This document shows, piece after piece, positions 16,053 through 33,988 of a stretch of 64,000 bases of DNA. The stretch comes from Nitrospira sp. (GTDB lineage Bacteria; Nitrospirota; Nitrospiria; Nitrospirales; Nitrospiraceae), in NCBI GenBank assembly GCA_022226935.1, contig CP092081.1, positions 2,752,181-2,816,180 on the forward strand. The letters are read 5' to 3'. The first letter of the stretch is position 1. Each line of letters starts with the position of its first letter. Under the pieces are notes generated by a model. It was not told where the DNA came from and did no database searches. It saw nothing but the letters and a program-made list of their open reading frames with translations. A program made the position numbers and the translations under genes.

Positions 16053-16258
16053 TTAGCGTTCTGTGCCGCACTGAGCAATGAGCCGCACGTAGAATCGACA
16101 GCCCGGTCCCTTTTGACCCTCATCGGTCTCGGAGTTGCCCTTCGTCGAGACTGATGGAACTCCCCCGCAGACCACCAAATACGCGAGACCGCCGATGATC
16201 GCAAGGTTCTTCATCACATGCACGGTGAGTCCGAAATAATGACGCCCGCCGGTGTCTA
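16053..16258 (-). pseudogene. Remnant of a DoxX-family gene
   Basis: Reading minus from about 16258 gives HYFGLTVHVMKNLAIIGGLAYL, which matches the last helix of the tandem DoxX protein at 20450-21283 (FAKNLAIIGGLCYVGAYG). No start or N-terminal helices remain, and the tail after the helix is unrelated to DoxX. The frame runs past the 3' end of the NDH-2 fusion gene, so the N-terminal part was probably lost at this junction. An 11-bp inverted repeat (GGAGTTCCATC at 16007-16017, its complement at 16153-16163) flanks part of it. No gene is seen in 15923-16052. Confidence 0.7.
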
Positions 16259-18313
16259 TGCTCTTCTGAGCTGTTCCGAAGCCGAGGCAGGTTCATCCAA
16301 TCGCTGTGATAGCAGATGCCTCAACATCCGCTCCGAACGGATCACGCCGATCATCCGTCGCAAATCATGGTTCTCGACCACCGGCAGCCAATCGAGATCG
16401 TGCTTGTTCATCAGATCGCCGGCCATCAGGCTCGTGTCACCCTGAGTGATCACCAAGGGATCGACGCGCATAAACTCCTGCGCCTGGGTCGCCGGGTTCT
16501 GCCCTTGCGCAAAGGCCTCAAACAGCTCGTTCCTGGTGACGATCCCGTTCAAACGAGCATGCTCATCCAAGACACAGAGCCACTCGACCGCATGCTGGTC
16601 GAACAGGCGCACGGCCTCTTCAAACGTATCGGCGACAGACAAGCGATGCTCCGGCACCGGCTCCAGGAAGGTGGATAAAGGCGCGCGTTCGAGGGCAGCC
16701 CATGATTGGGCCAACCGTGGATTCAATCGAGGCCGCCGCCATCTCAGGGCCTGAGCCAGAAGATTGCGGAAGGGAGTGAGCGTACCGAAAATTTGCGAGA
16801 ACACCTCTTTCCCCATCACGAGCACTTCGACCGCCGTGCGGGCGCGCACACTCCCAATTCGCACGCTGCCGTCGAGGAGCGCGATCTCGCCGAAAAACTC
16901 TCCCGGCCCGAACCGCGCGAGAATCCTCGGCTGCCCCGCCGAGTCACGCTTGATGGCTTCGACCTCACCCTGTTCAATGACGTAAAAATACACCGCTGGG
17001 TCACCTTCGACGAAGATGTCATCACCCGGGCGATAATGCGCCCGCACGATCCGTTCGGTTCGATCGACCCTGGGATAGGCCAGATCACGAGGAAAGAACA
17101 GCTCCCAGGTCCAATCGAACGCGACCTTGATGCGGCGGGACCAGGAGGGAGATTTTAGCCAATAGACGGTCCTCCAGAGCCACCAGGCCGGAAACCCCGA
17201 GAGGCGGACACCCAAAATTTCAGCCACCGCGTTTTTCTCTCCGATGCCGCAGAGTTGCCCCAACGGTCTATAGGAAAATGGTCGGGTCGGTCGTCCCTTC
17301 AGCAGATGGATGATATTCTTCGCTGCTTGCTGGCCCTGCCGCTCGGCAAACTGGCCCGTCGTCGGCGACGGGTGGTTGTCGTACGCGTTGACGACCAGCG
17401 CGCAGTCGCCGATGGCCCAGACGTTCGACGCCCCGCGCAGCCGCAGGTCTGGATCGGTGAGCAACCGGCCGGCCTCCTTGGGAGCATCGAGCCGCTGCAC
17501 CAACTGCGGCATCGCCGTACCAATCGTGCAGACCAGGGTAGCCCCGCGGATCATCCGGCCATCTTGAAGCTCCACTCCCTCCGCGGTGGCCAGCACCGCT
17601 CGGGCCTGTAAGACCATCTGGATCCCGGCCTGCTCCATCTTCACCCTGGCAAACTCCCGTAACGCGGGGCTCACCTCAGGCAGAATATGATCACGGCTAT
17701 GGACCAGGGTCACGGTCACATCCTTAGCGCTGAAGTTGTTGTAAAATTTCGCGCTGACTCGAACCAGATCATTGATCTCGCCCGCCACCTCCACGCCGCT
17801 GAACCCCCCGCCGACCACCACGAACGACAGATACCAGCGCCGTCGTTCGGGGTCGTCGCAGACCTCGGCCTTCTCAAGCTGCTCGGTCACGTGAAACCGC
17901 AAGGCGATGGCATCGCCCACCGACTTCAACGGAAACGCATGATCGGCCATGCCCGGCACAAGGGTGAGGTTTACGGCGGCCCCGCATGCGATCACGGCAT
18001 GGTCGAACGGCATGCGGTTCAGGCGGCCGGCGTCCCCCATATATTCCACCTCGGACACAGGGAGATCGATCCGGCGTACTTCTTCCGTGCGGCATCGGAC
18101 TCCCGGCAACATCTGCCGCAGCGGCACCGTGACCGCACCGGGGTTGATCGCCGCGCCGGCCACTTCCGCCAGCAGCGGATAGAAGACCATGCTGTTTTCT
18201 CGGCTGAACAACACGATCTCGCAGGATTCCAGCCGCAATCGCTTGCGTAGAATCCTCGCGCATTTCACCCCGGCAAATCCGCCACCGACGATGATGATTC
18301 TCGTGATTGCCAT
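16256..18313 (-). CDS. Type II NADH dehydrogenase fused to cNMP-binding and CBS domains
   Basis: 685 residues. Residues 1-400 are a type II NADH:quinone oxidoreductase: FAD motif GGGFAG (10-15), NAD motif VVVGGGFSG (165-173) and NVWAIGDCA (297-305). Residues about 418-520 are a cyclic-nucleotide-binding domain with a cassette at 474-491 (FGEIALLDGS...). Residues about 551-670 are a CBS pair. The fusion implies NADH oxidation gated by a nucleotide, perhaps cAMP/c-di-GMP through cNMP and ATP/AMP through CBS; the ligands are inferred. Upstream lie CTGTCG-TG-CGACAG at 18343-18356 and a DNA palindrome at 18335-18344. Confidence 0.92.
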   Translation of the reverse strand: MAITRIIIVGGGFAGVKCARILRKRLRLESCEIVLFSRENSMVFYPLLAEVAGAAINPGAVTVPLRQMLPGVRCRTEEVRRIDLPVSEVEYMGDAGRLNRMPFDHAVIACGAAVNLTLVPGMADHAFPLKSVGDAIALRFHVTEQLEKAEVCDDPERRRWYLSFVVVGGGFSGVEVAGEINDLVRVSAKFYNNFSAKDVTVTLVHSRDHILPEVSPALREFARVKMEQAGIQMVLQARAVLATAEGVELQDGRMIRGATLVCTIGTAMPQLVQRLDAPKEAGRLLTDPDLRLRGASNVWAIGDCALVVNAYDNHPSPTTGQFAERQGQQAAKNIIHLLKGRPTRPFSYRPLGQLCGIGEKNAVAEILGVRLSGFPAWWLWRTVYWLKSPSWSRRIKVAFDWTWELFFPRDLAYPRVDRTERIVRAHYRPGDDIFVEGDPAVYFYVIEQGEVEAIKRDSAGQPRILARFGPGEFFGEIALLDGSVRIGSVRARTAVEVLVMGKEVFSQIFGTLTPFRNLLAQALRWRRPRLNPRLAQSWAALERAPLSTFLEPVPEHRLSVADTFEEAVRLFDQHAVEWLCVLDEHARLNGIVTRNELFEAFAQGQNPATQAQEFMRVDPLVITQGDTSLMAGDLMNKHDLDWLPVVENHDLRRMIGVIRSERMLRHLLSQRLDEPASASEQLRRA

Positions 18314-20449: not shown

Positions 20450-21283
20450 CTATCGGACCGAATTTCGCCTCGCATCGAGACTCAGGGACCCAGCCCCCTG
20501 CGCCAAGACACAGATGAGGCCGCCCAGGATCGCGAAGTTTTTCATCATGTGAAACTGTTGGTCTTGAAGCGTCGCATCCAAAACAAAACTCATGGACGTC
20601 CGATGAAACATCATGGTTGCAGGAACGATGACGAGGATCAATACCGCTGCGCCGGCCCTGGTCCACCAGCCAAGCCATAAACACAAGGCGCCGATCATTT
20701 CCAATATGATCGCTCCGGCGTAGAACAGCTCCGCGCCCGGGAACGGTCCCATGGCTTCTATGTATGGTCGAGCTCTTTCCGGATTCAGAATATTGTTCAT
20801 GCCCGACAACACAAAGATGGCGCCCAGCAAAATGCGGCCCGCCAACGCCAGCACAGCGTGATGGGGCTCCGCGATGGCAACGTTCCTCGACACATGGTCC
20901 TGCGCATCCATACTGCGGGTGCCCGGTCCATACGCGCCGACATAGCAGAGTCCGCCGATGATGGCGAGATTCTTGGCAAAGTGGACGAGTTGGTTCGGAT
21001 CGGTCAGATGGGTGTGAAAAATTCCGGTCACCATCATCATGAACAGCACGAGCAAAAAGACCGCTTCGCGAGTGGTATGACCGAGAGCGAGGGCGATGCC
21101 GCCGCCGAATTCAATCACGGTGGCTCCGAGATACAGCAGCATGGTACCCGCGGTCAGACCATAGGCCGCCATATACTGTTGTGTGCCTTCAGGATTGAAG
21201 ACCTTATGGAGACCGGCCCACAGGAATAGGGCCGCGAGCAAAAGACGACCCGTCAAGCTGAGGGCCGGTTCATATTGCTGCAT
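20450..21283 (-). CDS. Tandem DoxX-family membrane protein
   Basis: 277 residues containing two DoxX domains in a row, about eight helices in total. Repeat 1 covers residues about 10-125 (LLAALFLWAGLHKVFNPEG to FAKNLAIIGGLCYVGAYG). Repeat 2 covers about 145-265 (ILLGAIFVLSGMNNILNPE to HMMKNFAILGGLICVLAQG). DoxX proteins are usually four-helix and linked to terminal oxidases, thiosulfate:quinone reduction or thiol oxidative stress. The DoxX remnant at 16053-16258 derives from this type. Confidence 0.88.
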   Translation of the reverse strand: MQQYEPALSLTGRLLLAALFLWAGLHKVFNPEGTQQYMAAYGLTAGTMLLYLGATVIEFGGGIALALGHTTREAVFLLVLFMMMVTGIFHTHLTDPNQLVHFAKNLAIIGGLCYVGAYGPGTRSMDAQDHVSRNVAIAEPHHAVLALAGRILLGAIFVLSGMNNILNPERARPYIEAMGPFPGAELFYAGAIILEMIGALCLWLGWWTRAGAAVLILVIVPATMMFHRTSMSFVLDATLQDQQFHMMKNFAILGGLICVLAQGAGSLSLDARRNSVR

Positions 21284-21949: not shown

Positions 21950-22246
21950 TCACCCTCCGCCTCCGTGATCCCCGGCCCGTATCTTGCTCAAGTCCTGCAC
22001 GATGGCCTTGGTCATACAGCCTTTCGCGTGAATCCTGACCCCCTCGCGATCCATCTGGGAGAGAAGCGTCCGTCCAGCCTCATCGATAAAGGTCACCTCA
22101 CGAAGATCGATCTGGCAATGGGTGGGATCGTCGAACTCCGCCCGCGTCCAACATTGCCTGAGCTCCTGGACCCAGGGCCCCACCAACCGCCCGGAGAGCG
22201 TGAAAGTGATCCCCGGATGCTCGTTCGACACCGTAATTTTCAACAT
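21950..22246 (-). CDS. STAS-domain protein, full copy
   Basis: 98 residues with a single STAS domain: ITFTLSGRLVGPWVQEL at the start and IDLREVTFIDEAGRTLL, where an Asp/Glu replaces the usual phosphorylatable Ser. Anti-sigma-factor-antagonist-type STAS proteins bind partner kinases. The first 34 residues closely match the truncated copy at 30831-30965. It is the third gene of the operon from the promoter at 23005-23018, 39 bp after the DoxX gene. Confidence 0.85.
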   Translation of the reverse strand: MLKITVSNEHPGITFTLSGRLVGPWVQELRQCWTRAEFDDPTHCQIDLREVTFIDEAGRTLLSQMDREGVRIHAKGCMTKAIVQDLSKIRAGDHGGGG

Positions 22247-22285: not shown

Positions 22286-22792
22286 TTACAAGCTGCGGAA
22301 GGCATATGCCGACTTGCCGGGCTCCGAGGGCTGAACCTTCGCCGGTTCACCCAGCCATTTTGCGATCAATCCATCCAGCGACCACTTGCCGCCACCGATG
22401 ATGAACAGCGCCGCACTCATCGCGATGACGAGCAGGTGATATTCGAACCCTTCGCCTTGTTGTTGCCCGAACCAATTCATGAAAAACCCCTGCGGCAAGT
22501 GCACGGTCACGATCGCCCCGAGCATGATGACGACAAAGCTCGCCGCCGTGAATCGCGTGAACAGGCCCGCGATCAATCCGAGACTGCCGATGGACTCCCC
22601 GATGATGACCAGGAACGCGATCAGCCAGGGCAGCCCCATCTTCTGCGTGAAGAATCCCATGGTTCCTTCGAAACCGAACCCGCCGAACCAGCCAAGCAGC
22701 TTCTGCGCGCCGTGCGCAACAATGACCCCGCCCAGAACCACTCGCAGAATCAAACCCGCCCAAGACTCATCTGTTTTGAAAAATGTGTACAT
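22286..22792 (-). CDS. DoxX-family membrane protein, copy 1
   Basis: 168 residues, four helices. [23 protein letters not shown] and the C-terminal [22 protein letters not shown] are DoxX hallmarks. It is nearly identical to copy 2 at 31026-31532; the visible differences are conservative. In related bacteria DoxX-type proteins act in membrane redox or thiol-stress complexes. It lies between the 37-residue membrane peptide and the STAS gene, downstream of a sigma-54 promoter. Confidence 0.92.
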
Positions 22793-22844: not shown

Positions 22845-22958
22845 TCACTTGCGCCAGGCCGGCTGCACGATCCAATCCCTGCTCAGCAGACTCAGGGTGA
22901 CGAGTGGAAGGCTTGCCAAGAGTCCATACCACCAGAGCCATACCGCCGCGTTTTTCAT
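22845..22958 (-). CDS. 37-residue membrane peptide, copy 1
   Basis: A short ORF begins [18 protein letters not shown] and ends ...QPAWRK. One transmembrane helix fills most of it, with a basic tail. GGAGGG lies 7 bp before the ATG, and the gene sits 35 bp downstream of the inferred sigma-54 start site. The paralogue at 31554-31685 has the same layout (MKDITLWVGWYGMLVTLP...). Conservation of both position and WYG-L-LP spacing supports a real peptide, perhaps an accessory subunit of the following DoxX protein. Confidence 0.7.
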
Positions 22959-23003: not shown

Positions 23004-23019
23004 AGCAAAGGCCGTTCCT
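23004..23019 (-). promoter_or_regulatory. Sigma-54 promoter P1
   Basis: On the minus strand the sequence AGGAACGGCCTTTGCT has the invariant GG and GC separated by 10 bp (GG at 23018-23017, GC at 23006-23005), with TTTGC at -12. Transcription would begin near 22993, ahead of the 37-residue peptide at 22958. Two similar promoters with the same upstream array lie at 24329-24345 and 31729-31745. Confidence 0.75.
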
Positions 23020-23111: not shown

Positions 23112-23166
23112 GTCGTGACGAATGAGTCGCGACGAGGCCTCGTCAGGTGACGACGCGCTCGTCACG
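23112..23166. promoter_or_regulatory. Upstream activator array U1
   Basis: TGACGA at 23116-23121 is followed after 18 bp by TCGTCAGGTGACGA at 23140-23153 and after 5 bp by TCGTCA at 23159-23164. A perfect 14-bp palindrome GACGAGGCCTCGTC overlaps at 23131-23144. The first TGACGA is 98 bp from the -24 GG of P1. The array repeats at 24440-24489 and 31839-31888 with nearly the same spacing. Sigma-54 activators bind such dyads 80-200 bp upstream of the promoter. Confidence 0.75.
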
Positions 23167-23205: not shown

Positions 23206-23248
23206 AATCCAAAGGCCACGCCGGTTATTACGACATGGCCTTTGGATT
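23206..23248 (-). terminator. Intrinsic terminator of the two-repeat secreted protein
   Basis: Perfect 13-bp arms AATCCAAAGGCCA (23206-23218) and TGGCCTTTGGATT (23236-23248) enclose a 17-base loop. On the minus strand the stem is followed by TTTTCTC. It lies 35 bp after the stop of the gene ending at 23283. Confidence 0.75.
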
Positions 23249-23282: not shown

Positions 23283-24254
23283 TTACAGCGCGGCCTTTCT
23301 GAGATCGATCACCCTCCCACTTTCATCCAACTCCACAATAACCGTCGTGCCTTCGGCAATCGGCTTGGTCTTCACTTCCATTCGATCCAAGGGGAACACT
23401 TTCTCGCCTTCAGGGGTCCACAGTTTGATTTCTTTTTTGGTGAGTCCCGCGTACACGAGTTTGCCGGTAATCAAGCGATGCGCCCCCGGCTTGTTCTTGT
23501 GTTTGCCATGGTGGTCGATCACCATATTCTCCTCGTTCAACCATAACGTCACCTCGTCACCCACCGCTGCATCGGGTGGCGCCGTCTTCTCGCTGATCGT
23601 GTACCGCCCAACAGGCGTCTGCACATAGACCAATCCCGATTGAATTTTCGTCACCTCACCGTTCAAGGTCAGGTGCGAGCCGGACAACGTGTGGGGATGT
23701 TCATCAATCTCCAACTCCACCGTGAGGCGATGGATATCGATGACCTTCCCGGCCTCATTCAGTTCGACGGCAATCGGCGTGCCTTCGCTTACGCCCGACA
23801 GTTGCGACCGCCCTGTCTGGACGGCAAAGATTTTTTCTCCTTCAGGCGTCCAGAGCTTGATTTCTCGTCTGTCCAATGACGCATAGGCCAGCTTGCCGGA
23901 CACGAAGCGGTGGGAATGGGAAGGGTCCCCTTTCCGGTGCACATCGACGACCACATTATTCTCGTTGACCTGCATCTCGACTTCCTCGCCCACCTCCAAA
24001 TTGTTCGGCGCTGTGGCAGAGGCAATGCGCACTCGACCCCACGATGTCTTCACGGTCAGGAGGTCAGGCTGTACGTGGGAGACTACCCCGGTCACGTTCA
24101 TATGGGTACCCGGTCGCTGCGTAGGTCTGTCGACGTCATCGGCCCAACCAGGCGCTGCAGCCAGCAACAGGCTCATCATCATGACGCCTGACAGGGATTG
24201 CGCTCCGGACCAACGCAACTGTGCACGTTCTGCTGAGTGACGATAGTTCATCAT
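23283..24254 (-). CDS. Secreted protein with two homologous repeats
   Basis: 323 residues from ATG-ATG at 24254, where GGAGGAGG precedes; the longer reading is rejected. A signal peptide ends near PGWA-DD. The mature protein is two repeats of about 120 residues. Each has a V-V-T-P/S-WGR-like strand block, N-E-N-N/M-V-V-D/I-D-H, then GKLAYASL/GKLVYAGL, IKLWTPEGEK and VIDIHRL/VIDLRKA. I know no named family. It is the sole gene of the transcript from P2, so probably an envelope protein of the same stress response. Confidence 0.7.
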   Translation of the reverse strand: MMNYRHSAERAQLRWSGAQSLSGVMMMSLLLAAAPGWADDVDRPTQRPGTHMNVTGVVSHVQPDLLTVKTSWGRVRIASATAPNNLEVGEEVEMQVNENNVVVDVHRKGDPSHSHRFVSGKLAYASLDRREIKLWTPEGEKIFAVQTGRSQLSGVSEGTPIAVELNEAGKVIDIHRLTVELEIDEHPHTLSGSHLTLNGEVTKIQSGLVYVQTPVGRYTISEKTAPPDAAVGDEVTLWLNEENMVIDHHGKHKNKPGAHRLITGKLVYAGLTKKEIKLWTPEGEKVFPLDRMEVKTKPIAEGTTVIVELDESGRVIDLRKAAL

Positions 24255-24328: not shown

Positions 24329-24345
24329 GGCAAACCGCATTCCAG
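24329..24345 (-). promoter_or_regulatory. Sigma-54 promoter P2
   Basis: The minus-strand sequence CTGGAATGCGGTTTGCC carries GG at 24343-24342 and GC at 24331-24330, 10 bp apart. The TGGAAT -24 element and TTTGCC -12 element are close to consensus. The predicted start is near 24318, 64 bp before the ATG at 24254. The array U2 lies 97 bp upstream. Confidence 0.78.
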
Positions 24346-24433: not shown

Positions 24434-24497
24434 GCACAGTGACGAATGAGTCGCGACGAGGCCTCGTCAGGTGACGACGTTGCTCGTCACGCTGTGC
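24434..24497. promoter_or_regulatory. Upstream activator array U2
   Basis: Same plan as U1: TGACGA at 24440-24445, 18 bp, TCGTCAGGTGACGA at 24464-24477, 6 bp, TCGTCA at 24484-24489. The block from GTGACGAATGAGTCGCGACG through GGTGACGACG is identical in U1 and U2. GCACAG/CTGTGC outer arms add further symmetry. It is 25 bp beyond the stop of the ABC permease gene ending at 24523. Confidence 0.78.
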
Positions 24498-24522: not shown

Positions 24523-25677
24523 TCACTGGAATTGCCGTCGAAACCGCCACATACCAGAACCGAACAACGTCCCGCCCAACAGGAGCATGGCACCGACTGG
24601 CTTCCACAACAGATCCAAGCCGGCTCCCTTCAACATCACGCCGTAGGTGATGTCGATGTAATAACGCAGAGGGGAGAACGTCATGATCGCCTGCACCCAC
24701 TGAGGCATCGATTCGAACGGCGAGGTGATGCCTGACAACAACAGCATCGGGCCGACGGCGAAAAGCGCCATCATGGCCACTTGGGCCTGATTCTTAGCGA
24801 GCGTCGCCGCCACCAGCCCGAAGCCGGCGGTGGTGAAGACATGCAAGCCGGTCAGCAGAAAAAAGAGGGCCGCCGACCCCTTCATCGGCACATGAAACAG
24901 GGGATGCAACACGCCGTACAGGGCCAATGCGGTCGCGAGGAGAATGACTCCCGACATGGCGAGCACTTTCGAAAACATGATCTGAAACGGCGACAACGGC
25001 GAGACCAGCAATTGCTCGACCGTGCCTCGTTCCTTTTCACGCACCAGTGCGGCGGCCGGCAACAACACCGCAAAGAGGGTGATCATGCGCAACAGATGCG
25101 AAATGGACTGGAACCATCGTTCATCCTGAGTCGGGTTGAACCAGACACGATGGGCACTGGACACGAGCGGCATGCTCGCCTTCGCTCCGGACAGACCTGC
25201 GGAAGCGAGAGCCGTCTCGGTGCCGAACGAGGCGGCAATGCGCACGGTATAGGCGGCGGCGGAAAGCCCTTGAGGCGCGTTGGTGGTATCGACCAGCAGC
25301 TGGACCGCCGTTCGTTCTCCGCTCATGAGGGCTTCGTGAAATCGCGGAGGAACGTCCAACACCAACATCGCCCGGCCTTGGTCCAATTGCCGGAGCCCTT
25401 GGCGAGGATCGCTGATCGCTCCCGCCAACGCAAAATAGGGAGGCTGAAACCGATGAATCAGCTCGCGGGACGAGGGGCTTTGATCCTCATCCTGCACCAG
25501 CAACTCCGCGTTGGTGAGCTGCATCGTAATCCCGGCTCCGCTGACCAGCACCGAGAGGGAAAATGAATAGATCAGGAACAATAACAGCGGCACATCGCGC
25601 GACAGTTGCAAGAGCTCCTTCCACGTCAGCGCCGCGAGTCGTTGTCCCCACGTGGCTGCCCGCTGACCGGCCGTCAT
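24523..25677 (-). CDS. ABC-2-type permease B
   Basis: About 384 residues from ATG 25677. One N-terminal helix, a large periplasmic domain (residues about 60-200), then five C-terminal helices with VREKERGTVEQLLVSPL, the ABC-2 EKExGT coupling motif. It resembles YbhR-type permeases of four-part YbhGFSR exporters. The start lies 11 bp after the previous permease stop. Confidence 0.88.
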   Translation of the reverse strand: MTAGQRAATWGQRLAALTWKELLQLSRDVPLLLFLIYSFSLSVLVSGAGITMQLTNAELLVQDEDQSPSSRELIHRFQPPYFALAGAISDPRQGLRQLDQGRAMLVLDVPPRFHEALMSGERTAVQLLVDTTNAPQGLSAAAYTVRIAASFGTETALASAGLSGAKASMPLVSSAHRVWFNPTQDERWFQSISHLLRMITLFAVLLPAAALVREKERGTVEQLLVSPLSPFQIMFSKVLAMSGVILLATALALYGVLHPLFHVPMKGSAALFFLLTGLHVFTTAGFGLVAATLAKNQAQVAMMALFAVGPMLLLSGITSPFESMPQWVQAIMTFSPLRYYIDITYGVMLKGAGLDLLWKPVGAMLLLGGTLFGSGMWRFRRQFQ

Positions 25678-25687
25678 GCCATGCCTC

Positions 25688-26818
25688 TCATGCCTTCGGT
25701 CGCTTGGTAAAGAGGTGATACGTGAGCCCGCCCAGCGCGCCGGCAAAGCTCGCCAGCGCCAGCAGATCGATCCACAGGACCTCCGCCCCGACACCCTTCA
25801 GAAAACTGCCTCGCACAATATTGGTGAAGTACATGGCCGGGAAGAGATGCGCCTGGACCTTCGCGCCTCGTGTCAATGAGGCGACGGGGACCAGGAGGCC
25901 GGAAAACAAAATGGTCGGAATCATCGCCACGACCATCGTGATGATCAGCGCCGCCATTTGCGTCTGCACCAGCAGCGAAATCAGCAGACCGATTCCCGTG
26001 GTACAGCAGACGAAGAGCATCGACGCGAACAAGAACAAGAGGAAGTCCCCCTTAAAAGGCACCTGAAAGAGGCCCACGGCCATCAGCCATAACACGCAGA
26101 CGTTCACGAGGGAAATGAGGATATAGGGCAGCAGCTTCCCGGTGAGAAACTCGGCTCGGCTCACAGTGGAACTGTAGATGTTGTAGATCGAACCTGTTTC
26201 CTTTTCCCGCACCACGCCGAGCGCCGTCAGCAGAGGAGACGCGAGCATCAACGTGAACATGACCAGCGCCGGGACCATGGACCAGGTACTGCGAACCTCC
26301 TCGTTGTACAGATACCGAACCTCTACGCTCAGCGGCCGCACGAGGACGCCGGCTTGCTCCTGGGTGAGACCGCGAGCGCGGCGCAGGAAATCGATGAGCC
26401 GATCCTCAGTAAACGCCTGGTTGATGGCGATGACATAGCCCTTGGCGATATCCGTATGGAGCGGAAAAGTCCCGTCGAGCAACGTCTGCACGGCGACCGG
26501 TTCGCCGGCGACCAATTGTTCCTGAAACCGCTCGGGCACGATGATCGCCGCCCGGATCTTCGTTTCGGTCAACAGGCGATCCAGGGTGCGCTCGTCGTCG
26601 GCATAGCCTCGAAACGAAAAATACCGCGACTGAATGAACCGCTGGAGATAGTCCCGGCTGAACTCACTATGATCCCGATCCAAGACCGCGAACGGAATGT
26701 CCTCGACGTCTAGATTGAGCCCGTACCCGAACACCACGAGCCAGAGAGCCGGCAGAAGAAAGGCCAGCAGCAAGAACAGCCGGTCTCTGGTAGTCTCCTT
26801 CCACTCCTTGAGCGCCAC
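25688..26818 (-). CDS. ABC-2-type permease A
   Basis: 376 residues. An N-terminal helix (LFLLLAFLLPALWLVVFGYG), a periplasmic domain and five C-terminal helices with VVREKETGSIYNIYSS. It pairs with permease B and a two-ATPase protein as in YbhGFSR. The start is a GTG at 26818; a CTG or other upstream codon is possible since homologues often begin near NLQRIRAVALKEW. Confidence 0.85.
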   Translation of the reverse strand: MALKEWKETTRDRLFLLLAFLLPALWLVVFGYGLNLDVEDIPFAVLDRDHSEFSRDYLQRFIQSRYFSFRGYADDERTLDRLLTETKIRAAIIVPERFQEQLVAGEPVAVQTLLDGTFPLHTDIAKGYVIAINQAFTEDRLIDFLRRARGLTQEQAGVLVRPLSVEVRYLYNEEVRSTWSMVPALVMFTLMLASPLLTALGVVREKETGSIYNIYSSTVSRAEFLTGKLLPYILISLVNVCVLWLMAVGLFQVPFKGDFLLFLFASMLFVCCTTGIGLLISLLVQTQMAALIITMVVAMIPTILFSGLLVPVASLTRGAKVQAHLFPAMYFTNIVRGSFLKGVGAEVLWIDLLALASFAGALGGLTYHLFTKRPKA

Positions 26819-26838: not shown

Positions 26839-28818
26839 TCAGGGAGCCTCCTTTTTGTGCGCCGCCCGTTCGAGCGCCATGACGCGTGACACAAACACGT
26901 CCTCCAGGCTGAGCATCCGCGGACGCACCGCCGCTATCGTCATGCCGACGCGCGCCAACACCTCCCGGAGACGCGCCTCGTCGCGGGATGGATCGCGTGA
27001 GAGCACATGGATCTTCGTGCCGAAGAGCGCGGCGCCGGTGAAACCTGCCTTCGCCACCTGCGCGAGTGCGGCGCCCGGTTTATCCACGGCAATCTCCAGC
27101 AGTTGCCCGACTTCCCGCTCCACCTGTGTTTTGAGATCCGACGGTGTCCCCTCGGCCACGATACGGCCGGCATACATGAGGGCCAGCCGATCACAATGTT
27201 CCGCTTCGCTCAGGTAATGTGTGGTGATGAGGCTCGCGACGCCCTCTTCGCGAGCCAACCGCGACAGCAGCTCCCAGAACCGCCGACGGCCGATAGGATC
27301 CACGCCGGACGTCGGTTCATCGAGGAACAAGACCCGGGGGCTGTGGACGAGTGCGCAACCCAATGCGAGACGCTGCCGCACCCCCATGGGCAGGCGACCC
27401 GTCCGATCATGCTCATAACCGCTGAGGCCGGCCATGTCCACGATCCATGCCGTCCGTTGTTGCGCCTGTCGACGAGCCAATCCATAGATGTCCGCAAAGA
27501 GCCGGATGTTCTCGATCACGGTGAGGTCCAAATAGAGAGAAAAGGCCTGGGACATGTAGCCGATGCGTTCTTTGATCGCACCACCGGCCGTCCGCATGTC
27601 GGCGCCGGCCACACGTCCTGCTCCGCCTGTCGGCGGCACGATCCCCGTGAGCATCTTAATCACAGTGGTTTTGCCTGCGCCGTTCGCTCCCAAGAGTCCG
27701 AAGATTTCGCCCTGTTTCATGTCAAAGCTGACTCGGTCCACCGCTCGAAATGAACCAAAGTCACGAATCAGCTCCTTGGCCTCGACGGCTGGTCCGTCAA
27801 ACTGCGGCATGGTCGCCGAGACGGCTGACGGGCCCAATCGTTCCGACACTCTAGCCTGACCATCCTGTTCTTTCAGCAAGAGCGCCACCACGACATCTTC
27901 CAGCTCCGGTTCATCCGTGTGGAGATGGGCCACCGGCAAAGGCTCCAGCGCCTGCCGAATCCCGGCCACGGCAGCCTCTTCCTCCTGCTCCGGAGTGAAC
28001 ACGTGCAGCGACGGGCCCAACGACTCCACCTGGGTGTAGCGGCGTTTCAGACGGGCGGCCGCTTCGAGTTGCGGGGTCGATTCGAAGGTGACGACTAGGC
28101 CGGGCACTAACGATTGAACGTGTGCGGGAGTGCCGAATGCCAGCACGCGTCCATGCGAGAGAAACGAGAGTCGATGAAAGCGGACCGCTTCGTCCATATA
28201 GGCGGTCGAAACGAGCGCGGTCATGCCCTTGACCGCCTGCCATTCCGCGAGAATGGCCCAGAAATCGCGGCGCGACACCGGGTCGACACCGGTCGTCGGC
28301 TCATCGAGAATGGCGAGCTCCGGCTCATGAATCAGCGTGCAGATCAGGCCGAGCTTTTGCTTCATGCCGCCTGAAAGCTGTTTCATCAGCCGGCTGCGAA
28401 AGCGATCTAAGCGCGTGATGGCCAGCAGCCGCGCTTTGCGCTCACGCAGGTCCGCCTCGGGAACCAACCGCAGTTTGGCGAAAAAATCGATGTTCTCCTC
28501 GACAGAGAGCTCGGGGTAGAGATTGAGTCCCAATCCTTGAGGAAGAAATCCGATCCGCCGCTTCACCTGTTCCGCCGCTTGCTCGGAATCCAACAGGGTC
28601 TCGAACACTTCGGCGGTTCCCCCTTCGTAGCCCAGTACCCCCGCGATCGCCTTCATCACACTGCTCTTGCCCGCACCATCCGGGCCGATGAGGCCGTAGA
28701 TCTCCCCTCGGTGCACCGTGAAGTCCAGACCGTTGACCGCAAGATGCTGCTTGTATCGCTTGACGAAGCCGGACACCCGGACGACCACGTCCGGCGACGA
28801 TGCAGACGGGCTCATCAT
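26839..28818 (-). CDS. Duplicated ABC-transporter ATPase (YbhF-like)
   Basis: 659 residues, two nucleotide-binding domains. Domain 1 (about 10-245) has Walker A GPDGAGKS, signature LSGGMKQKL and Walker B LAILDEPTTG. Domain 2 (about 330-570) has GANGAGKT, an atypical signature LPMGVRQRL and VLFLDEPTSG. It overlaps the membrane-fusion gene by ATGA (28815-28818). The set drives efflux of an unidentified substrate across the envelope. Confidence 0.93.
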   Translation of the reverse strand: MMSPSASSPDVVVRVSGFVKRYKQHLAVNGLDFTVHRGEIYGLIGPDGAGKSSVMKAIAGVLGYEGGTAEVFETLLDSEQAAEQVKRRIGFLPQGLGLNLYPELSVEENIDFFAKLRLVPEADLRERKARLLAITRLDRFRSRLMKQLSGGMKQKLGLICTLIHEPELAILDEPTTGVDPVSRRDFWAILAEWQAVKGMTALVSTAYMDEAVRFHRLSFLSHGRVLAFGTPAHVQSLVPGLVVTFESTPQLEAAARLKRRYTQVESLGPSLHVFTPEQEEEAAVAGIRQALEPLPVAHLHTDEPELEDVVVALLLKEQDGQARVSERLGPSAVSATMPQFDGPAVEAKELIRDFGSFRAVDRVSFDMKQGEIFGLLGANGAGKTTVIKMLTGIVPPTGGAGRVAGADMRTAGGAIKERIGYMSQAFSLYLDLTVIENIRLFADIYGLARRQAQQRTAWIVDMAGLSGYEHDRTGRLPMGVRQRLALGCALVHSPRVLFLDEPTSGVDPIGRRRFWELLSRLAREEGVASLITTHYLSEAEHCDRLALMYAGRIVAEGTPSDLKTQVEREVGQLLEIAVDKPGAALAQVAKAGFTGAALFGTKIHVLSRDPSRDEARLREVLARVGMTIAAVRPRMLSLEDVFVSRVMALERAAHKKEAP

Positions 28819-29918
28819 CGAGGCTTCGACCAGGCGACGTCGTCCTTCCAGCGGATCACCGCGTCCGCCGGAAGACCCGGCGTCAGCCGATGATTTGGAT
28901 TCGCCGTAAGATAGAGCCGGACGGCATAGATCAACTTGATCCGTTCGTCCGGGGTTTGGACTTCTTTGGGTGTGAATTCCGCTTTCGAGGCGAGGTATCG
29001 GACGGTCGCATCGAAGGGTTGATCGGGAAACGCATCCGTGTGAATGCGGGCCGGCAAATCCAGGCGGACTTTGCCGATCTGGAGTTCCGGGACATAGACC
29101 TGCAGGTACAGACGGTCGAGGTCCACCAATTCGAGAAGAGGCGCCCCGGTGGCCACGACTTCGCCGACGTCCACCATGCGCGTGGTCACCGTCCCGTTCG
29201 TCGGGGCCACAATCGTCAGATCATCGAGCACGCTGCGGGCCTCCGCCAGCGTCGCATCCGCTTGGTCACGTTGCCGTTCGAGCGCCGCGACTTCCGCTTC
29301 TTTTGATCGGATTCGTTCCCGCCCCAATTCGGCCTGCGCCAATTCCTTGCCGGCTTGATCATGGGCGGCTTGCGCCACGGCAATCTCGGTAACGGCGATC
29401 GTCCACCGCGCATCAGCCTGATCCACTTGCTGTTGCGACACCGCCTGCTCCGGAAGCAGGGCGCGGATGCGCTCCGCGTCCCGACGGGCTTCGTATTCGA
29501 TGGCCCGAGCCTTCCGGATCACGGCGCGCGCGCTCTCCACTTTGGCGGCCGCCGCTTCGATGCTCAGCGGGACTTCGAGGTTCAGAACCGCGAGCGCCGT
29601 ATGGGCCGCCTCCACTTGCGCCATCAAGCTATCGACCAGCCGCGCGGCTTGATCGACCTTCGCCTTTGTCTGCGCATCGTCGAGTCGGATCAGGATGCTG
29701 CCTTTGAGCACCTCCGTTCCCTCACGCGCTGCCAGCTCGACGACACGTCCCGGGAATTTGCTCGCCACAGTGACATGGTCGCCTTCGATCCGCCCATTGG
29801 CCTGAATCAGCCCCTCCGGCAGCCCGTTGTGCCCCACCAACCGATCGAGGAAGACATATCCGGCTATCACTACGAAGACGAGGACGGCGGCTGCCGTCAT
29901 GGAGGTACGGATAGTCAT
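28815..29918 (-). CDS. HlyD-family membrane-fusion protein
   Basis: 367 residues: one N-terminal membrane helix, lipoyl half ASKFPGRVVELAAREGTEVLKGS, a long alpha-helical hairpin (about 100-220) and barrel region LTIVAPTNGTVTTRMVDVGEVV. Functions as periplasmic adaptor for the ABC exporter genes that follow. It lies 128 bp after the Spy-like gene, so it may belong to the P3 transcript. Confidence 0.9.
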   Translation of the reverse strand: MTIRTSMTAAAVLVFVVIAGYVFLDRLVGHNGLPEGLIQANGRIEGDHVTVASKFPGRVVELAAREGTEVLKGSILIRLDDAQTKAKVDQAARLVDSLMAQVEAAHTALAVLNLEVPLSIEAAAAKVESARAVIRKARAIEYEARRDAERIRALLPEQAVSQQQVDQADARWTIAVTEIAVAQAAHDQAGKELAQAELGRERIRSKEAEVAALERQRDQADATLAEARSVLDDLTIVAPTNGTVTTRMVDVGEVVATGAPLLELVDLDRLYLQVYVPELQIGKVRLDLPARIHTDAFPDQPFDATVRYLASKAEFTPKEVQTPDERIKLIYAVRLYLTANPNHRLTPGLPADAVIRWKDDVAWSKPR

Positions 29919-30046: not shown

Positions 30047-30487
30047 TCAGTGATCTCCGTACCGATCCATCCACTTGCGGATGTGCTCCACGGCTTCAGC
30101 CTTCTGTTCCGGCCGGAGAGTCGCATGCCAGTCCGCCACCTTCGGCAATACGCGCTGCATCACGCGCTTCTGTTCTGCTTGGTGCCGCTCCATCAGTTGC
30201 GTCAGCTTGGCCTGGTCCAGCCGGTCACTCTTCACCTGAGCGATCACGTCTTCCATGATGGCGTTGTGCTCCGGCTGCGACTCGGCACGAGCCGCCACCA
30301 TTTCGTCCCTCACAGCCATCAGCTTCGCCTTTTGTTGGTCATCGAGATTCAAATGTTTGGCAATCTTGCTCGTCATCCAGTCGGCGCGTTCTGCCGGCGT
30401 GTGGTGACGATGACACCCCGCACCGACCAGTGCTCCGGCCAGAACCAGCGTCCCGATCGCAACCCGAACCGTCTTGTGCATGTGCAT
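30047..30487 (-). CDS. Spy/CpxP-like periplasmic lipoprotein
   Basis: 146 residues with a signal peptide and lipobox VGAGC. The mature part is helical: MTSKIAKHLNLDDQQKAKL and LRPEQKAEAVEHIRKWMD contain LTxxQ-like repeats of the Spy/CpxP family, which are envelope chaperones or metal sensors. HRHH after the lipid Cys could bind metal. Its C-terminus has a remnant copy at 21804-21866. Confidence 0.85.
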   Translation of the reverse strand: MHMHKTVRVAIGTLVLAGALVGAGCHRHHTPAERADWMTSKIAKHLNLDDQQKAKLMAVRDEMVAARAESQPEHNAIMEDVIAQVKSDRLDQAKLTQLMERHQAEQKRVMQRVLPKVADWHATLRPEQKAEAVEHIRKWMDRYGDH

Positions 30488-30534: not shown

Positions 30535-30834
30535 TCAGTATTCGAAGGCAATGTGATAGAGCGCCGGCGTCATCTCCACCCCGAGTTGCCCGAGCCTGGC
30601 CTTCATGGGGGTGACACTCTTCTCATAGGCTTTCCAGTACACGTCCTCATTGTCCCAGATGGCCACGTTGATATAGTTGAACCGGCTGTCCGGCGTGATG
30701 CTCTTGTGAAAGGTCCCGCTGATGAATCCCTCCTGTTTCGTGATGTGCGCCTTCACATCCTGCCACCACTGCACGAAGTCTGCTTCTTTCGCCGCGGGGA
30801 CCGAAAACACGTTGATCAATGTCACCGGCATCAT
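30535..30834 (-). CDS. Antibiotic-biosynthesis-monooxygenase (ABM) fold protein
   Basis: 99 residues, a single dimeric alpha-beta barrel ABM domain: TLINVFSVPAAKEADFVQWW, FISGTFHKS and FNYINVAIWDNED. Members break down haem or oxidise quinols; the substrate here is unknown. Its ATG overlaps the stop of the truncated STAS gene as ATGA (30831-30834), so translation is probably coupled. Confidence 0.85.
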   Translation of the reverse strand: MMPVTLINVFSVPAAKEADFVQWWQDVKAHITKQEGFISGTFHKSITPDSRFNYINVAIWDNEDVYWKAYEKSVTPMKARLGQLGVEMTPALYHIAFEY

Positions 30835-31025: not shown

Positions 31026-31532
31026 TCAGAACATGCGCAAAGCGAAATGTGCCTCCCGCGCCTTCGGATCCGGCGAAGTCGCCCGTTCCCCAAGCCAGCG
31101 GGCGATGACACCATCTAACGCCCACTTTCCTCCGCCCACGATCAATAACGCCAGGCTCATGCCAATGACCAGCAGGTGATATTCAAACCCTTCACCGGTC
31201 TGCTGCCCGAACCAGTTCATGAAGAACCCTTGCGGCAAGTGCACGGTCATGATCGCGCCCAGCATGATCACGATAAAGCTCGCCGCTGTGAACCGCGTGA
31301 GCAGGCCGGCAATCAGCCCAAGACTGCCGATGGACTCCCCGATGATGACGAGGAATGCGACCACCCAGGGGAGGCCCATTTTTTGAGTAAAGAACCCCAT
31401 CGTGCCCTCAAACCCGAACCCGCCGTACCAGCCCAATAGCTTCTGAGCGCCGTGCGCGAAGATCACGCCTCCCAGCACCACCCGCAAAATCAAACCTGCC
31501 CAAGAATCATCTGTTTTGAAAAAGCGGTACAT
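31026..31532 (-). CDS. DoxX-family membrane protein, copy 2
   Basis: 168 residues, the same length as copy 1 at 22286-22792 and nearly identical from residue 1 to about 160. The C-terminal tail differs (ERATSPDPKAREAHFALRMF). Four helices with [13 protein letters not shown]. It follows the 43-residue membrane peptide by 21 bp, downstream of P3. Confidence 0.92.
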   Translation of the reverse strand: MYRFFKTDDSWAGLILRVVLGGVIFAHGAQKLLGWYGGFGFEGTMGFFTQKMGLPWVVAFLVIIGESIGSLGLIAGLLTRFTAASFIVIMLGAIMTVHLPQGFFMNWFGQQTGEGFEYHLLVIGMSLALLIVGGGKWALDGVIARWLGERATSPDPKAREAHFALRMF

Positions 31533-31553: not shown

Positions 31554-31685
31554 TTACCGTCGGTGGCTCCGCACCCATTGCGGAACCGCACTCGCCATTC
31601 GAGCTTTCACCCACAGCCCTGCAACGAAGAGCGGCAGAGTCACAAGCATTCCGTACCAGCCAACCCACAGCGTGATGTCTTTCAT
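31554..31685 (-). CDS. 43-residue membrane peptide, copy 2
   Basis: MKDITLWVGWYGMLVTLPLF starts a single transmembrane helix followed by a basic tail. The ATG at 31685 is preceded by GGGAGG. The gene is 33 bp after the inferred P3 start site and 21 bp before DoxX copy 2. It is the paralogue of the peptide at 22845-22958. A longer in-frame reading to 31778 would extend across the promoter and is rejected. Confidence 0.7.
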   Translation of the reverse strand: MKDITLWVGWYGMLVTLPLFVAGLWVKARMASAVPQWVRSHRR

Positions 31686-31728: not shown

Positions 31729-31745
31729 GGCAAGGCCCGTTCCAG
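31729..31745 (-). promoter_or_regulatory. Sigma-54 promoter P3
   Basis: Minus-strand CTGGAACGGGCCTTGCC has GG at 31743-31742 and GC at 31731-31730 with 10 bp between. It is the best of the three promoters (TGGAACG and CTTGCC). The start would be near 31718, before the membrane peptide at 31685. Array U3 is 96 bp upstream. Confidence 0.8.
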
Positions 31746-31835: not shown

Positions 31836-31891
31836 GAGTGACGAAGGGCGACTGACTGGAGGTCGTCAGGTGACGAAGCGGATCGTCACTC
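31836..31891. promoter_or_regulatory. Upstream activator array U3
   Basis: TGACGA at 31839-31844, 18 bp, TCGTCAGGTGACGA at 31863-31876, 6 bp, TCGTCA at 31883-31888. The outer arms extend to a perfect pair GAGTGACGA/TCGTCACTC. Between the arms the bases differ from U1 and U2, while the motif and spacing are kept. The last half-site overlaps the stop codon (31886-31888) of the activator gene. Confidence 0.78.
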
Positions 31892-33988
31892 GCGAGGACG
31901 GAAGATGCCGAGCTTTTTGATCTTCGAAGTGAGTGTCGTACGTTTTAAGCCCAGCCTGGCCGCTGCGCCATCCGGGCCGCCGATGACCCATCGTGTGTCG
32001 CGCAGAGTCTTCAAGATCTGCTCGCGTTCAGCATCCTGGAGTGTGGCGGCTGGAGCCGGATCCTGCCGCGCCTCGATCTTCAACTCCTGAAGCGGCACAT
32101 GCAGCTGCATCCCCTGGGTGAGGATCACGGCTCGCTCAACCAGGTTCTCCAATTCCCGAATGTTGCCGGGCCAGTGATAACGGGACAGGGCCTCCAGCGT
32201 CGGAGCGGGAACGGATTCGATGGTCTTTTTCATGCGCGCGGCATAGTGCTGCGTGAAATACCGCACGAGCATCGGAATGTCTTCTCGCCGATCCCGGAGC
32301 GGCGGCAGGTTGAGGGGAAACACGTTCAGCCGGTAATACAAATCGCTGCGAAACCGGCCCTCCTCGACCAATGTGGCCAGGTCACGATTCGTGGCAGCCA
32401 CCAGACGGATATCCACGCGAATCGTGCGGGTACTCCCAAGGCGTTCGAATTCCTGTTCTTGCAGCACCCGGAGGAGTTTGGACTGCAGCTCCAGCGGAAT
32501 TTCCCCCACCTCGTCCAGAAAGATCGTGCCGCCATGAGCCAGCTCGAACCGGCCGACTTTCTGGGCGATGGCCCCGGTGAACGCCCCCCGTTCGTGACCG
32601 AACAGCTCACTTTCCAGCAATCCGGTGGGAATGGCGGCGCAGTTGAGTTTGACGAACGTGCGCGCATGCCGACCGCTCAAGCGATGGATCGCCCTGGCGA
32701 TGAGTTCTTTCCCCGTACCGGTTTCCCCCAGGATCAGCACCGTGGCGTCGGTCGGCGCCACGATTTCGACTTGTCCCAAGATCTGCTTGAGCGCCCGGCT
32801 GTCGCCGATGATGTCGTCGAAGCCGTGTTCCACACGAATTTCCTCTTCCAGGTACAACTTCTCCTCGGTCAACCGATCTTTGAGCGTGTGAATCTCCTGA
32901 TACGCCACGGCATTGTCGACGGCCAACGCGATCTGCCCCGCCACCTGGCTCAAGAATTCGACATCCTGCTCGCCGAAGGCTTGCTCGTGATGACTCGCCA
33001 GATTCAAGCAACCGATCACGCGGTCACGGGACAGCAGCGGAAGCGAGCACATGGAGCGAAACCCTTTCCTCACCAAGAGTTGAGGCACCGCGTGAGAAAA
33101 CGCTTTCAGGTCCAACAGAGTATTGGCAATCGCGGGGCGCCTCCGCTCAAACGCCAGACCAGCCAGAGAACCGGCGGCATCCGACAGTGCCCCCTCGGTC
33201 AACGCGCCTTCATTGTCGGGAAAATCGAGGGCATGGAGACGGACGCGCTGCGTCTCGCCGTCGCAGAGAATCAGACTGGCATATTCCTGCGGGACCATCT
33301 CGCGCAGACAGAGACTCACTGCCCGGAATACTTCTCGCAAATCCAACGTCGATGCGATGGTATTCGTCATGCGCAACAGCAGACTGAAGCGATCCCGCTG
33401 CCGTTCCACATCACGCCGTAACGCCTCCGCGGCTTCGCGGTTGAGCACATTCTCCACGGCCACCGCCACCTGCCGGCCGACTTGCTGCATCAGCTCCATA
33501 TCTGCAACGCCATACGCCTTCGGCGCCAGGCTCGAAAATTCCAATGAGCCCAATCGCCGAGCCACGGAAGTCAGCGGCACCAGACAACAGGATTGCACGC
33601 CGTCCTCACGCATCAATTCCATCACGGTCGGCCAACGCCGTTCGGCGGACAGATCGCTCAACAACAGCGGCTGCTGAGTTTCCCACACCAGGCCGGCCGG
33701 CGTGTCCCCCGGTTCGCTTTCGTGCCCCCCGATGATGTCCGCGGGGACATTCGCGCGGAGCACATGCAGGCGCATCACGCCGCGATGAGGATCGTACAGG
33801 GACAGACCGACAAAATTGACCGGCACGACTGACGGCAACAACCTCGCGAGATCCTGCACCAGCGCGGACAAGTCGGAATGACTGGCAATGGCCTCGGCCA
33901 CGCGCAACAGGGTGCGATACCTGTCGAGGCTGGAAAGATCGCTCTCGTTCACCGGGTTCCTGTCTTGTGTCATCACGGAATGGGCCAC
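31886..33988 (-). CDS. Sigma-54-dependent activator, GAF-GAF-AAA+-Fis (FhlA-like)
   Basis: 700 residues. Two GAF sensor domains (about 21-180 and 200-360), a short coiled linker, then the AAA+ domain with Walker A GETGTGKE (421-428), the sigma-54 contact loop GAFTGA (468-473) and Walker B IFLDEVGEIP (489-498). A Fis-type HTH is at about 655-700 (GAAARLGLKRTTLTSKIKKL). Having no receiver domain, it is FhlA-like and responds to a small ligand or redox cofactor in GAF. It lies just upstream of P3 and its array, and is the natural candidate to bind all three arrays. Confidence 0.95.
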   Translation of the reverse strand: MAHSVMTQDRNPVNESDLSSLDRYRTLLRVAEAIASHSDLSALVQDLARLLPSVVPVNFVGLSLYDPHRGVMRLHVLRANVPADIIGGHESEPGDTPAGLVWETQQPLLLSDLSAERRWPTVMELMREDGVQSCCLVPLTSVARRLGSLEFSSLAPKAYGVADMELMQQVGRQVAVAVENVLNREAAEALRRDVERQRDRFSLLLRMTNTIASTLDLREVFRAVSLCLREMVPQEYASLILCDGETQRVRLHALDFPDNEGALTEGALSDAAGSLAGLAFERRRPAIANTLLDLKAFSHAVPQLLVRKGFRSMCSLPLLSRDRVIGCLNLASHHEQAFGEQDVEFLSQVAGQIALAVDNAVAYQEIHTLKDRLTEEKLYLEEEIRVEHGFDDIIGDSRALKQILGQVEIVAPTDATVLILGETGTGKELIARAIHRLSGRHARTFVKLNCAAIPTGLLESELFGHERGAFTGAIAQKVGRFELAHGGTIFLDEVGEIPLELQSKLLRVLQEQEFERLGSTRTIRVDIRLVAATNRDLATLVEEGRFRSDLYYRLNVFPLNLPPLRDRREDIPMLVRYFTQHYAARMKKTIESVPAPTLEALSRYHWPGNIRELENLVERAVILTQGMQLHVPLQELKIEARQDPAPAATLQDAEREQILKTLRDTRWVIGGPDGAAARLGLKRTTLTSKIKKLGIFRPRE

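Follow-up and report, generated by a model that had tools for sequence, protein, structure and literature searches.

Sequence and structural-model analysis of REP, a predicted tandem OB-fold protein of a putative sigma-54 regulon in Nitrospira

The stretch of DNA analysed in this study, hereafter the window, comprises 64,000 nucleotides of a Nitrospira sp. genome (assembly GCA_022226935.1, contig CP092081.1, positions 2,752,181 to 2,816,180) and carries a gene for a two-repeat protein of 323 aa, here called REP. This gene is preceded by a -24/-12 (sigma-54) site, with TGACGA/TCGTCA half-sites arrayed further upstream, and is followed by a hairpin terminator; it forms the middle one of three array-bearing units, the other two being short-peptide/DoxX units. 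The relevant features are listed below in window positions.

21950..22246 (-), small STAS-like protein (PF01740, 9e-4, 19.4 bits against a cut-off of 22.6)
22286..22792 (-), DoxX2, DoxX family (PF07681, 1.2e-21)
22845..22958 (-), 37-aa hydrophobic peptide ORF before DoxX2
23004..23019 (-), -24/-12 site of the DoxX2 unit, AGGAACGGCCTTTGCT
23116..23164 (-), second array, N5 variant, upstream of peptide 2 and DoxX2 (pattern search)
23206..23248 (-), REP hairpin terminator, 18-bp stem, -31.3 kcal/mol (folding)
23283..24254 (-), REP, 323 aa, two repeats of ~130 aa (ORF call and translation)
23286..23699 (-), repeat 2, 138 aa used in alignment A2, with D247, H249 and H259
23697..24110 (-), repeat 1, 138 aa used in alignment A2, with D104, H106 and H115
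24329..24344 (-), -24/-12 (sigma-54) site of REP, TGGAATGCGGTTTGCC, GG-N10-GC spacing
24440..24489 (-), REP upstream array, TGACGA-N6-TCGTCA-N2-TGACGA-N18-TCGTCA (pattern search)
24523..25677 (-), ABC-2 type permease 2 (reading of sequence)
25688..26818 (-), ABC-2 type permease 1 (reading of sequence)
26839..28818 (-), twin ABC ATPase (reading of sequence)
28815..29918 (-), HlyD-like membrane-fusion protein (reading of sequence; syntenic in L041, L052 and L053)
30047..30487 (-), LTXXQ (Spy/CpxP-like) periplasmic protein (PF07813, 2.1e-9)
30535..30834 (-), ABM monooxygenase-like protein (PF03992, 2.7e-7)
31026..31532 (-), DoxX1, placed in the family of DoxX2 by alignment
31554..31685 (-), 43-aa peptide ORF before DoxX1
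31729..31744 (-), -24/-12 site of the DoxX1 unit, TGGAACGGGCCTTGCC
31839..31888 (-), third array, upstream of peptide 1 and DoxX1 (pattern search)
31886..33988 (-), sigma-54 activator, GAF-GAF-AAA+-HTH (Fis-type) (profile search; GAFTGA read in translation)

Translation of REP starts at an ATG at 24254, with a strong AAGGAGGAGG ribosome-binding site just 5' of it, and stops at 23283-23285. In a single comparison (E=5e-39) the two repeats were 43% identical across 129 aligned aa, and both contain EIKLWTPEGEK, which bears out the internal duplication with a repeated IKLWTPEGEK block that the original prediction had described. The alignment of REP orthologues holds 19 rows with a mean identity of 73%. 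By inspection, residues ~1-38 resemble a signal peptide, with a hydrophobic stretch followed by GWA|DD (...ALADQGG in orthologues), and the Sec-signal-like character of this N-terminus, judged by eye, would fit a probable export of REP to the periplasm, as in its earlier designation as secreted. The promoter, array and terminator attributed to the gene were likewise each located by sequence as the -24/-12 site, the half-sites and the 18-bp hairpin, respectively. None of 200 shuffled sequences folded as stably as the terminator hairpin, which is absent from the list returned by a generic terminator consensus scan.

When the 4.23-Mb genome was searched for TGACGA-N18-TCGTCA-N2-TGACGA with at most two mismatches, exactly three arrays were retrieved, all of them in the window (23116, 24440 and 31839) and within 8.8 kb, while the reversed pattern, used as a control, gave no match in this genome or in 29 genomes of the genus. 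A -24/-12 site with GG-N10-GC was found for all three window arrays. Across the genus, 25 arrays were identified in 20 of 29 Nitrospira genomes, their consensus being TGACGA-N5/6-TCGTCA-N2-TGACGA-N18-TCGTCA (no more than one mismatch within the searched part). At every one of these 25 loci a -24/-12 site lies 92-96 bp downstream of the array; an interval of 5 nt would contain one by chance with a probability of 0.0043. Family-wide, the array pattern occurs in 44 of 175 Nitrospiraceae genomes, the genus included, and the chromosome of N. defluvii retains a degenerate array. The genome also encodes RpoN (PF04552, 6.5e-57). Taken on sequence grounds, the regulation of REP by a dedicated sigma-54 regulon appears well supported.

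The units placed behind these arrays are predominantly of the DoxX type. In the tally of array loci, the array leads a DoxX unit in 20/25, REP itself in 4/25 and another gene in 1/25; REP is visible downstream in 11 of the 20 DoxX-led units within the 1.5 kb fetched. Array-driven DoxX units often begin with a peptide of 37-45 aa and continue with a STAS-like gene, which is conserved next to DoxX in such units of the genus. REP-like genes of 65-77% identity were moreover found at seven loci (L042, L043 and L045-L049) where the fetched stretch, which is short for L042 and L048, holds neither an exact array nor DoxX. Since such co-orthologues without an exact array exist, the role of REP is not tied to the regulon. 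The exclusive placement in the regulon and the central role once proposed for REP find no support in these comparisons, as two of the three arrays and promoters in the genome lead DoxX units and most relatives have DoxX as the array-driven unit.

The candidate regulator is the activator whose gene adjoins the third array and whose product matches PF00158 (5.4e-73) and PF02954 (2.4e-6). It comes nearest to FhlA, although the match remains below the cut-off (606.7 of 830 bits), as does that to NorR (380.5 of 476). It resembles both in its GAF-type input, its AAA+ domain with GAFTGA, its Fis HTH and the dyads upstream of its putative targets, and differs from them in its target genes as well as in falling below both cut-offs. 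Orthologues with at least 79% identity are present in 21/29 genus genomes and the array in 20/29, with both in 19/29 and neither in 7/29 (Fisher p=1.7e-4, to be read as indicative only because the genomes are often incomplete and related); two genomes (G001 and G025) have the activator without an array. At 8/25 array loci, that of the third window array included, the array is directly adjoined by a long activator match. This co-occurrence and adjacency speak against the arrays and -24/-12 sites being read by another activator, a reading which we hold to be quite improbable despite a second one in the genome that shares this architecture at 58% identity, and despite one genome (G015) that has an array and no close activator orthologue.

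At the level of sequence, no Pfam or NCBIfam model reached its cut-off for REP itself, the sub-threshold rows including MazE_antitoxin and TOBE_2, and the REP family is for this reason uncurated. Several memberships were considered and rejected. Among the orthologues scanned singly, the LysM_OapA cut-off is passed by one (L057; 23.8 of 22.3 bits, 4.9e-5) over only 25 residues, and the best CusF_Ec value (7.8e-6, again L057) stays below its cut-off at 26.1 of 27 bits. Sequence matches in the PDB were unconvincing, namely a tandem adhesin (E 4e-4, in four weak stretches), prefoldin and a proteasomal OB domain (E 0.75).

A search with short peptide patterns, which detects close relatives only, returned 20 relatives in named genome contigs, all from Nitrospira and including Ca. 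N. defluvii. In a sample of 295 genomes of the phylum, a profile of the repeat (E 1e-5) gave matches in 79, distributed over the genus (16), the rest of the family (57), the order (2) and the class (4), and the protein family is best read as centred on the Nitrospiraceae. Family members occur in all 29 genus genomes examined. Besides REP, the present genome holds six further matching places, of which two lie in one two-repeat protein of 345 aa and the remainder are single-repeat or weaker. Among 13 loci examined, the 345-aa form is held by eight (L002:455-2529 and L030-L036), and in all eight genes for an ECF sigma factor and a putative anti-sigma factor come directly after it in the same orientation, a neighbourhood that we counted for an envelope theme in the REP family. 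At L006:3-2073 in this genome, a gene for a sigma-54 response regulator stands opposite a weak paralogue of REP. A shortened REP copy at L059:9869-10480, in which repeat 1 seems to run into repeat 2 after an in-frame loss, means that the two-repeat form is not fixed.

The fold of REP, described at the outset as unknown, can now be predicted. The full-length model (pLDDT 69.9, pTM 0.36) places the strands in four sets of five, and the model of one repeat (pLDDT 77.7, pTM 0.49), the check that had been proposed, gives two sets of five. The leading Foldseek rows are tandem OB proteins, with TM values low over two barrels and identities of 5-18% in the rows shown. A second structure comparison gave Z values of 7.4-8.5 with SilF, RecO, RuvB-like 2, EF-P, SSB and CusF, mostly over 57-73 residues; SilF ranked best (Z 8.5, rmsd 2.2 over 65 residues), with the EF-P OB domain at Z 8.1 and CusF at Z 7.4-7.6, and a Z near 8 is the level at which the tool warns of a merely common arrangement. 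A prediction of four OB barrels, two per repeat, is well supported by these models of middling confidence, and one repeat modelled as two OB barrels has a known fold. The fold is better settled than the function, because the matches concern one domain of a very common fold. As to the possibility that REP would match a known general-purpose family, this holds for its fold (OB) and fails for its sequence family. Within a repeat, hhalign matched OB1 to OB2 with 95% probability; since this match covers only 24 columns, a further duplication giving rise to each repeat is no more than suggested.

Each repeat contains an Asp-x-His...His cluster. In a set of 110 repeats from 64 family ORFs, which are not independent, the corresponding D62, H64 and H74 of alignment A2 are invariant in 80/80 high-scoring repeats, whereas among the other 30 D62 is kept in 27, H64 in 10 and H74 in 21. 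This pattern hints at a candidate metal or ligand site, one per repeat. It also lends something, together with the CusF_Ec value in one orthologue and the position of SilF as best structural row with CusF rows near it, to the idea of REP as a CusF/SilF-type metal chaperone that would pass Cu or Ag on to the ABC exporter. CusF and SilF are indeed small periplasmic OB barrels like those predicted for REP, but each consists of a single barrel. The ligands of SilF are His63, Trp71, Met74 and Met76 (PMC10656224), and the corresponding H-x7-W-x2-M-x-M pattern is present in 0/64 family ORFs. Membership of CusF/SilF, considered because of the fold rows, was rejected on the absence of these ligands. 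As CusF_Ec moreover matches just 2/19 orthologues at E 0.1, with no row for the window protein, and as many unrelated OB proteins score equally high structurally, we consider a chaperone of this type unlikely.

The gene content surrounding the arrays offers some indication of the circumstances in which REP may act. DoxX, LTXXQ and ABC efflux genes together suggest envelope stress. REP orthologues are often found near genes for Rieske-flavodoxin, glyoxalase, DsbA-like, pirin and ferredoxin-reductase-like proteins, as is the case at 34-41 kb of the window, and among these the glyoxalase, pirin and reductase genes would point to electrophile stress. As a literature search on quinone/electrophile stress for the DoxX/pirin/glyoxalase neighbourhood gave nothing useful, electrophile or quinone stress is a lead only.

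Parallels may also be sought among other OB proteins. YgiW, YdeI and SipA, whose type of protein carries the family name BOF, have one OB domain each as against four in REP; they are periplasmic and stress-induced, and REP is like them in its predicted OB fold, may share their periplasmic location and stress induction, and is unlike them in its sigma-54 control. The BOF Pfam profile gave no row for the window protein at E values up to 1. YgiW and SipA are described as periplasmic OB-fold stress proteins connected with peptide, cadmium and peroxide stress, and YgiW-type proteins as binding porins and peptides (PMC6370654). Mpa/ARC (OB-OB), Unr (cold-shock domains), S1 and EF-P, the kinds of protein that head the Foldseek rows, form chains of OB barrels as REP would. 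These tandem proteins are cytoplasmic or nuclear and mostly linked to nucleic acids or ATPases, in which they would differ from REP.

The reading we favour, and judge to be somewhat probable, is that REP is a periplasmic four-OB protein with a ligand-binding role in stress, made from one of the three units of a dedicated Nitrospira sigma-54 regulon. A small molecule or redox signal would act on the GAF domains of the activator, which would bind the TGACGA/TCGTCA array and loop to the RpoN holoenzyme ~95 bp away. Under envelope or electrophile stress, REP would then be produced alongside the DoxX, STAS-like, ABM, LTXXQ and ABC-efflux proteins; the stress theme is taken from the neighbouring genes only. 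The weakest step is that exported REP may bind a metal ion, peptide or small molecule through its OB surfaces and Asp-x-His...His clusters, possibly working like YgiW/SipA or CusF/SilF while standing outside their families.

The tandem barrels, conserved TPEGEK motif and signal-like N-terminus of REP would also suit an envelope scaffold or a cell-wall or exopolymer binder, in which the OB surfaces hold glycans, peptidoglycan or an outer-membrane partner rather than a small ligand. Sugar-kinase-like genes (kinase by reading of sequence) occur in the neighbourhood of several REP co-orthologues, and the porin and peptide binding of YgiW-type proteins points in the same direction. However, no carbohydrate- or peptidoglycan-binding family reached its cut-off in the window protein, the short LysM_OapA match being confined to one orthologue, and we regard a scaffold or binder of this kind as rather doubtful, if worth bearing in mind.

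The family of REP is without description in the libraries searched, while its fold and control are not exotic. Nitrospira are major nitrite oxidisers, and no description of this regulon or its stress theme was found by the literature searches on the genus, as judged at listing level. It is conceivable, if speculative and in our estimation improbable, that REP is the founding member of a Nitrospiraceae family whose secreted tandem-OB proteins carry a novel kind of metal or ligand site (Asp-x-His...His) at each OB-OB junction, one per repeat, are repeatedly coupled to alternative sigma factors (sigma-54 with its activator for REP, an ECF sigma with a putative anti-sigma for the 345-aa paralogue) and serve as an envelope-side carrier or sensor in the stress response of nitrite oxidisers. 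The regulon provides one activator and a motif whose geometry is fixed, with its targets defined throughout the genus, and because the conserved array gives an exact handle, both the signal and the role of the tandem-OB family are directly testable.

Other features of the locus were also noted. In many genomes (L063-L066, L069, L070, L072, L076, L078, L080 and L081, in addition to the two cases in the window), the interval from the sigma-54 promoter to DoxX holds a hydrophobic peptide ORF of 37-45 aa (like MKDITLWVGWYGMLVTLPLF...) that matches no Pfam family. At 16256-18313 (-) the window encodes a type-II NADH dehydrogenase-like flavoprotein fused to cyclic-nucleotide-binding-like and CBS-like parts (sub-threshold rows), and at 20450-21283 (-) a tandem DoxX protein with a sub-threshold match (51.8 of 80 bits) to the HvfX copper-RiPP maturation family.
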